Positions 4,312 to 5,786 of a DNA stretch of 46,670 bases are shown here, in pieces. The stretch is from Enterococcus sp. (GTDB lineage: Bacteria > Bacillota > Bacilli > Lactobacillales > Enterococcaceae). The stretch covers positions 1 to 46,670 of the forward strand of contig NZ_JALAHI010000111.1 of NCBI RefSeq assembly GCF_022711995.1, given 5' to 3'. The position numbers were made by a program, and so were the translations under genes. The stretch's first letter is position 1. Each line of letters begins with the position of its first letter. The notes beneath the pieces were generated by a model. That model did not search any database and was not told where the DNA came from. It was given only the letters and a program-made list of their open reading frames with translations.

Positions 4312-5658
4312 TTATCGCATCGTAACGAACTCTTCTGCTCCAGTCGGATGGATCGCAACTGTGTTGTCAAAATCTGCCTTGGTTGCGCCCATTTTGATGG
4401 CAACAGCAAACCCTTGCAGCATTTCGTCAACCCCGATGCCGATACCATGCAAACCAATGATCTTCTCTTCTTTTCCTAAGCAAACAAGTTTCATTTCACA
4501 TTTTTGGCGATAGTCATTCAATGCAAAGTACATAGGTGTAAAGCGTGAACGATAGACTTTGATTTCTTCCTTACCATATTTGGCAATCGCAGCTTCTTCT
4601 GAAAGACCAATCGTTGCAATTGGCGGATGCGTGAAAATAACTGTCGGCACCAAATCATAATCTAAGTAGGCTTCGGTTTGGCCATTGAACAATCGTTCCG
4701 ATAAGCGGCGTCCTGCGGCAATCGCTACTGGCGTCAATTCCAGTTTACCGATTACATCTCCCACTGCAAAGATTGATTCCGCGGTAGTATTTTGATATTT
4801 ATCAACAATAATAAAGCCTTTTTCATCTAGCGAGACATCTGTATTTTCCAACCCAAGATGTTGCGTATTCGGCACTCGTCCTCCGGCAAATAACACACAG
4901 TCCCCCGTCAACGTTTGACCATTTTCAAAGAAAACCGTGTATTGTCCATCACGTTCTTCGATCCTTTCGGCCACATAGCCTGTATAAAGGTCTATCCCGG
5001 CTTCTTGATAAATCTCTACTAAATTGTCCGTCAGCATTTGATCAAAGGCTCGTAATGGCCGCTCTTTACGATACGCCCAAGAAACGTGACTGCCAAATTG
5101 CTGACTCATTCCGCTAAGTTCTGCAGCAATGTACCCTGCGCCTAGCACGATCATTTCTTTTGGTACTTCTTCTAAGGCAAAAAAGCCATTGGAATCAATC
5201 GCATACTCGCCTCCGGGAATCGACATGACACTTGGTTTTCCTCCGGTAGCAATCAGGATCTTTGGCGCGGTGTACTCTTCTCCATTGACCGTCACAGTAT
5301 AGTTATCCACAAACTGTGCATAACCGTGGATAACTTTTACTTGGTTGCTATCTAAGCCTTTTTGATACGCTGTGTGTAAAAATTCTATATATTTTTCTCG
5401 GTTATCCACAAGCTGCTTGAAATCAAATTTATCCACATGTGGATAAATTCCATAACTTGTGGCATCTCGCTTGATCATTTCCAACATTTCACTTGCTTGC
5501 CACATCACTTTTTTTGGTACGCAGCCTACATTGACGCAAGTACCTCCCAGCGCATTGCCTTCAATCAATAAAACTTTAGCTCCGTGCATACCTGCACGAT
5601 TTGCAGAAGCAATTCCGCCGCTGCCGCCACCAATCACTATGTAATCATATTGTTGCAT
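4312..5658 (-). CDS. gor: Glutathione-disulfide reductase
   Basis: A 448-aa pyridine-nucleotide disulfide oxidoreductase that reduces GSSG with NADPH. Visible: N-terminal FAD motif GGGSGG, redox pair Cys41 and Cys46 in GGTCVNVGC, a central NAD(P) motif GAGYIAAE, and the C-terminal dimer-interface HPTGAEE carrying the catalytic His. The [10 protein letters not shown] context fits glutathione reductase better than lipoamide dehydrogenase. Start ATG has AAGGAGG upstream. Odd feature: the segment coding for about residues 72-118 contains several TTATNCACA boxes on both strands (see findings). It is probably monocistronic. Confidence 0.9.
5303..5446. promoter_or_regulatory. Cluster of DnaA boxes inside gor
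   Basis: Perfect matches to TTATNCACA: 5303-5311 (+), 5315-5323 (-, TTATGCACA), 5402-5410 (+), 5429-5437 (+) and 5438-5446 (-). Near matches (8/9): 5325-5333 (-) and 5371-5379 (-). The last two perfect boxes form a palindrome. An AT-rich stretch (about 5376-5398) lies between the two groups. The sequence is seen directly; DnaA binding is inferred. Confidence 0.65.
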
Positions 5659-5786
5659 TATTGGCTTCCTCCTTGGGGATAACTTGATTTTGGTGTCTAT
5701 CGAACGAGTACCTGTGCAAAAAAAAGAACCTGACAGAAAAGTACCGAATGACCGATAAATGTGGAGAACCGCAGCTCTTACAAACG

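Follow-up and report, generated by a model that had tools for sequence, protein, structure and literature searches.

Here, we show that five perfect DnaA boxes are clustered inside gor, the glutathione-disulfide reductase gene of an Enterococcus genome, and that selection on the DNA itself, for some DnaA-box function, very probably keeps them there. Judged from the sequence, the segment is best read as a lineage-specific, oriC-proximal candidate DnaA-box cluster that lies wholly inside a coding gene. The window, by which we mean the whole stretch of 46,670 nucleotides that was analysed, is contig C118 of a 3.49-Mb assembly in 169 contigs (genome label G000).

Results

A pattern scan of the 46.7-kb window places all of its perfect TTATNCACA boxes within 5303–5446, on both strands (Table 1). 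The original prediction of five perfect boxes inside a glutathione reductase gene, forming the single cluster of the window, is thus borne out, and the gene is gor, which matches TIGR01421 with 710.6 bits against a cut-off of 556.15. With five perfect boxes in 144 bp, the segment has the dense, high-match boxes of a Bacillus subtilis-type DnaA-box cluster outside oriC. Dinucleotide shuffles of the whole window contain 2.04 TTATNCACA on average, and five or more across the 46.7 kb are seen in 7 of 100. Matches with one mismatch (8/9) within the cluster number three rather than the two counted earlier, at 5325(-) and, overlapping each other, at 5371(-) and 5373(-). The cluster spans codons 71–119, within the first third of the gor reading frame (gor nucleotide p corresponds to window position 5659 - p). 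The boxes at gor nt 213 and 222 abut and form the palindrome that had been predicted, 18 bp long at window positions 5429–5446, and those at nt 336 and 348 are convergent with 3 bp between them (5303–5323).

Table 1. The gor gene and its DnaA boxes in the window.
Feature	Window position	Strand	Basis or occurrence
gor, glutathione-disulfide reductase, 448 aa, host of the cluster	4312..5658	-	ORF and TIGR01421 above cut-off
DnaA box TTATCCACA, gor nt 213-221	5438..5446	-	14/18 carrier genomes
DnaA box TTATCCACA, gor nt 222-230	5429..5437	+	8/18 carriers
DnaA box TTATCCACA, gor nt 249-257	5402..5410	+	12/18 carriers
DnaA box TTATGCACA, gor nt 336-344, in the convergent pair	5315..5323	-	18/18 carriers
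DnaA box TTATCCACA, gor nt 348-356, in the convergent pair	5303..5311	+	18/18 carriers
8/9 box TTATCCACG, 1 bp off the 5315 box	5325..5333	-	one-mismatch scan
Two overlapping 8/9 boxes between the two box groups	5371..5381	-	one-mismatch scan

We matched and read gor in 99 of 105 family genomes, the other six being without gor at E 1e-150. Five genera (g1, six genomes; g6, four; g7, two; g8, three; g10, three) have three to six perfect boxes in gor in each of their 18 genomes, referred to here as carriers. Among the 81 non-carriers, 78 have zero boxes in gor, and G068, G069 and G071 have one each. The pair at gor nt 336/348 is kept in 18/18 carriers, and additional carrier boxes are found at gor nt 369 (five genomes), 792 (four), 852 (four) and 625 (one). 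A plasmid search returned distant gor relatives only. One genome, G041, has two equal-score gor matches 3 kb apart (C5:256849-261364), likely a duplication, of which one was read for the box count.

Are the boxes maintained as DNA, or are they by-products of coding? The strongest evidence for selection on the DNA itself is the wobble test within the genus of the window, which uses the boxes of the window only and is therefore free of post hoc choice of carriers. All six genus genomes examined, the window's included, contain gor, and among the relatives compared G002 is the closest by this gene (96% identity). In G002, G001, G003, G004 and G005, respectively, the boxes depart from the window at 0, 0, 0, 0 and 1 of 15 wobble positions, whereas the rest of gor does so at 123, 224, 217, 217 and 231 of 433 (28–53%). 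In the same order, 19/19, 19/19, 19/19, 18/18 and 16/16 box-region codons for shared residues are identical to those of the window, and codon identity for shared residues outside the boxes is 70, 46, 47, 51 and 46%. The Fisher values of this test treat codons as independent. Applied to five carriers of other genera, the same comparison with the window finds 15/15, 17/17, 16/18, 14/14 and 13/14 box codons identical; four non-carriers show no excess (G028 4/10, G031 3/10, G061 4/8 and G069 6/9, against 42–48% outside).

The family-wide data agree with this picture. Across the 18 carriers, 84 boxes are observed against 13.9 expected from synonymous within-gene shuffles, and across the 81 non-carriers 3 are observed against 5.1 expected. 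In 17 of the 18 carriers the observed number is reached by at most 8 of 1000 shuffles, and in G053, which has three boxes, by 78 of 1000. Between carrier genera, 86.5% of the pairs of codons for shared residues are identical in the boxes, against 46.6% outside. These figures, like the shuffle counts, are biased in that carriers were defined post hoc, by whole genera and after the boxes had been seen; the value outside is close to the saturation expectation of 42.0%. Synonymous identity is 0.746 for codons 71–77, 0.677 for 78–82, 0.852 for 83–86 and 0.925 for 112–119, compared with 0.547 for the stretch between boxes at 87–111, 0.435 for 120–140 and 0.488 for 30–70; stretches between boxes are thus also slightly over background. 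The convergent pair stands out further: among 90 four-fold columns with an invariant residue, the codon is invariant only at Gly112, Ala114 and Val117, all of them in the pair, and two (Tyr113, Asp118) of the nine invariant columns among 56 two-fold ones lie there too. Codon 117 is GTG in 18/18 carriers, against 2 of the 35 non-carriers with Val. At the protein level, Gln115 is found in 18/18 carriers and 7/81 others, and residue 119 is Asn or Lys in every carrier and mostly another residue elsewhere. Since box codons and wobble sites are conserved while the rest of gor drifts, amino-acid coding is insufficient as an explanation and selection at the DNA level is indicated; shuffles, codon identity and wobble test agree that the boxes are maintained as DNA rather than as coding by-products. 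The original prediction had named as its own refutation a conservation no greater than the amino-acid sequence forces, and it withstands this comparison both within the genus and between genera.

How unusual is such a cluster in the genome? The assembly contains 110 TTATNCACA sites in 3,485,919 bases (the positions of 100 are among the matches listed), against 78 for the reversed control pattern; this is one per 32 kb, close to the one per 33 kb expected beforehand. For TTATCCACA there are 36 sites, all with known positions, against 19 for the reversed pattern, and among all 36 there are two groups of at least four, namely gor and C87:59871-60309 (L061:9872-10310). A comparison of clusters across the genome thus yields one other group, which consists of six TTATCCACA between prmC (TIGR03534) and the threonylcarbamoyl-AMP synthase gene (TIGR00057), which we take to be ywlC by its B. 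subtilis name. The cluster extends into ywlC, with two of the six sites inside the ORF.

Related genomes have the same landmarks. Considering all places listed, G001, G002 and G003 have groups of at least four TTATCCACA at dnaA, ywlC and gor, and G002 has in addition three TTATCCACA within 1.2 kb at C7:136700. The three places stand out likewise in G005, where gor has three TTATCCACA and one TTATGCACA; for G004, 13 of 49 TTATCCACA sites are among those listed. We surveyed the ywlC region (-260 to +420 of the start) in 49 of 103 ywlC-bearing genomes: 31 have at least three perfect boxes, 15 have one or two, and G006, G059 and G071 have zero. The boxes in the ywlC ORF recur at the same codons, at +215 in 24/49 and at +330 in 32/49 genomes, and in-gene boxes are therefore not limited to gor. 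The ywlC match of G003 (L218, C7:116116-117126) has two TGA inside, which may reflect a broken gene or a fault in the assembly.

Of the 105 family genomes, 47 have a convergent pair with a 3-bp gap, against none for the reversed control pattern; gor provides the pair in 18. By pattern, 18 of 22 genomes of g13 have such a pair, and at L100 and L102-L105 (g13), L076 (G006) and L077 (G028) the flanks are alike and the site lies away from ywlC where checked (G083, G006). The g13 locus is probably another conserved cluster, in non-carriers. In the non-carrier G038, three TTATCCACA lie in 105 bp (L261:1797-1901), ~37 kb from gor and flanked by ORFs that by eye resemble rpoC and msrA, possibly a different cluster. 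On contig C1 of G005, the 24-bp perfect palindrome TTATACACATCTAGATGTGTATAA is present in 19 copies on one chromosome, the first at 211447-211470; G049 has a single copy of a longer-spaced relative, and the repeat is perhaps the end of a mobile element.

Where does gor lie relative to the origin? In the 7 of 18 carriers with both genes on one contig (the window's genome is among the remaining 11), gor lies ~79 (G005), 96 (G056), 110 (G054), 90 (G052), 75 (G058), 98 (G060) and 65 kb (G062) from dnaA, where the G005 and G056 values presuppose a large contig that is circular and closed; on the G005 contig, dnaA with its boxes lies at 31–33 kb and gor at 3152 kb. The cluster is near oriC in all seven, and a distance of 65–110 kb from dnaA speaks against its being oriC or a second origin. 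In the window's own assembly, rated 99.99% complete, we obtained no DnaA domain match, which probably reflects a gap at oriC. In non-carriers the distance is ~71 (G006), 41 (G013), 30 (G030), 33 (G038), 72 (G049), 58 (G045), 55 (G050), 55 (G047), 97 (G083), 80 (G096), 83 (G099) and 85 kb (G101), where the values for G006, G013, G030 and G038 assume a closed circular contig. With gor near dnaA in 12/12 non-carriers measured (30–97 kb), proximity to oriC was dropped as a sign of selection. Because gor of non-carriers is near dnaA too, its position permits a titration role but is not specific to carriers.

The history of the cluster was followed in two trees, one of gor without the box columns (50 of 99 genomes) and one of gor and DnaA together (39 genomes). 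The combined tree omits G000, whose assembly gave no dnaA, and G101, as well as G042, G067 and G095, which are without gor; it has long branches for G063, for which one of two DnaA matches was used, and for four non-carriers. Tetragenococcus (g17), which is without the gor cluster, is nested among the carriers in both trees. A clade of carriers alone is rejected in the combined tree (p-AU 1.7e-6) because g17 sits among them; carriers plus g17 are split from the rest by a single, weakly supported branch (70/26). In the gor-only tree, g1 sits apart from the other carriers without a resolved position; this tree calls for four changes, one of them forced by the starred branches. A single gain followed by loss in Tetragenococcus is the simplest history, and the identical box positions would favour a single origin; one gain with one loss, and several gains, are both compatible with the trees.

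Discussion

What might the gor cluster do? By analogy with B. subtilis, we lean towards titration of DnaA as its main role. DnaA would bind the cluster with the invariant convergent pair (5303–5323) as a putative anchor, and the remaining boxes would add binding capacity. Because gor is near oriC, its sites would be doubled early after initiation, lowering free DnaA, and the doubled sites could keep DnaA off the origin and so delay the next initiation, as the B. subtilis clusters do jointly. The motif GGKDHTTV, presumably the box-binding signature of DnaA, is present in 42/42 DnaA proteins read, and thus there is no hint of altered box preference in carriers.

When the six B. subtilis clusters are removed, initiation occurs earlier, strongly only with all six gone, and restoring one cluster partly recovers timing (PMC5295017). 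A ten-fold excess of DnaA without over-initiation in B. subtilis (PMC13220808), however, calls for caution on titration. A 2025 study makes the case that, in E. coli, DnaA is titrated by boxes concentrated near the origin (PMC12371093).

The gor cluster is a new place and a new setting, wholly in an ORF and with measured codon selection, for a known kind of element. It resembles the B. subtilis clusters outside oriC (Okumura et al, 2012; via PMC5295017, PMC13220808, PMC11019786 and PMC4447404) in its dense TTATNCACA outside oriC and near the origin, and the genome shares the ywlC cluster place, upstream of which B. subtilis DnaA binds strongly in vitro (PMC4447404). The likeness to these clusters that had been proposed is helped by this second cluster in the same genome. 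In contrast to gor, the eight strongest B. subtilis regions lie up- or downstream of genes (PMC4447404, Table 1); gor is absent from the genes of that table, and the gor cluster is confined to five genera and known from sequence. Closer in setting are the in vitro regions within B. subtilis coding sequences (codV, rplB and others), which have 2–5 predicted boxes and an apparent Kd of at least 1.1 uM for ATP-DnaA (PMC4447404); the available part of that paper describes no codon selection for them, whereas it is measured for gor. As in the double DnaA boxes of E. coli, two boxes 3 bp apart are the key unit, but those of E. coli are tandem (PMC11317965) and the gor pair is convergent with both boxes perfect. 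Like datA, DARS1, DARS2 and the origin-near boxes of E. coli, from whose massing titration is argued, the gor cluster lies outside oriC; datA and DARS, however, are non-coding and require helper proteins (PMC12371093). A term search of open-licence PubMed Central found no earlier report of DnaA boxes in gor.

Could the boxes regulate the gene rather than titrate DnaA? DnaA bound in gor might impede RNA polymerase and so couple the supply of glutathione reductase to the replication state. B. subtilis DnaA represses ywlC and other genes (PMC4447404), and a location within the first third of the gene would suit such a role. However, the boxes are probably not at a promoter, a weak scan finds no sigma-70-like match inside the cluster, the DnaA regulation cited in PMC4447404 acts at promoters, and there is no known reason for redox supply to track DnaA in these genera alone, so that we consider this explanation unlikely. 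The cluster might instead bind DnaA to alter its nucleotide state, like datA or DARS, or to organise origin-near DNA. Its dense boxes, closely spaced pair and position near the origin are compatible with this, as is the preference of E. coli DnaA for pairs 2 or 3 bp apart, one of them at DARS2 (PMC11317965). Given that the pair is convergent in gor and tandem in E. coli, and that B. subtilis is without IHF and without Hda and DiaA homologues (PMC13220808), such a role is quite unlikely.

It is very improbable that an RNA structure, or a protein other than DnaA, is what maintains the sites. The boxes are inverted repeats and could fold in the mRNA, but the 336/348 pair keeps a central G-G mismatch in 18/18 carriers and box 249 has no partner, which argues for N-tolerant nine-mers rather than a stem; from the conserved mismatch at the pair centre we infer that a hairpin is disfavoured. 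Against another protein stand the canonical DnaA-box motif and the presence of GGKDHTTV in every DnaA protein read. Chance, finally, can for practical purposes be dismissed. The original prediction had raised Val-Asp-Asn/Lys residues and codon bias as a source of boxes; several do fall on Val-Asp-Asn or Val-Asp-Lys, and codon shuffles expect 0.79 boxes in this gor. However, five boxes arise in 1 of 1000 shuffles of this gene, codon 117 is GTG throughout the carriers and rarely so in non-carriers with Val, and the wobble sites of the boxes show no drift. The codon alternative fails on the excess over synonymous shuffles in the carriers, and shuffles, between-genus codon identity and wobble test refute a coincidence of codons and amino acids.

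Against our reading of gor as a candidate DnaA-box cluster, 81 of 99 family genomes and the nested Tetragenococcus do without it. Box 222 is present in just 8/18 carriers, and the three boxes of G053 are unexceptional among its shuffles. In B. subtilis, DnaA binds most strongly in vitro to regions outside genes and more weakly to those within them.

A more far-reaching view, which we put forward tentatively and with rather less than even confidence, is that a replication-control element is dual-coded in the gene of a metabolic enzyme. DnaA binding would then have fixed codons and some glutathione reductase residues (Gln115, Asn/Lys119) as five genera evolved, Tetragenococcus would have lost the element, and such clusters would be traded between chromosomal places among lineages of the family.

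Control sites for replication timing have mostly been sought between genes, and in gor the selection signal is readable in synonymous codons. Because the signal lies there, a wobble test inside versus outside the nine-mers can reveal hidden DnaA sites in the genes of other clades. Within one family, genomes with and without the gor cluster provide a natural contrast for the weight that clusters outside oriC have in the initiation timing of Gram-positive bacteria.
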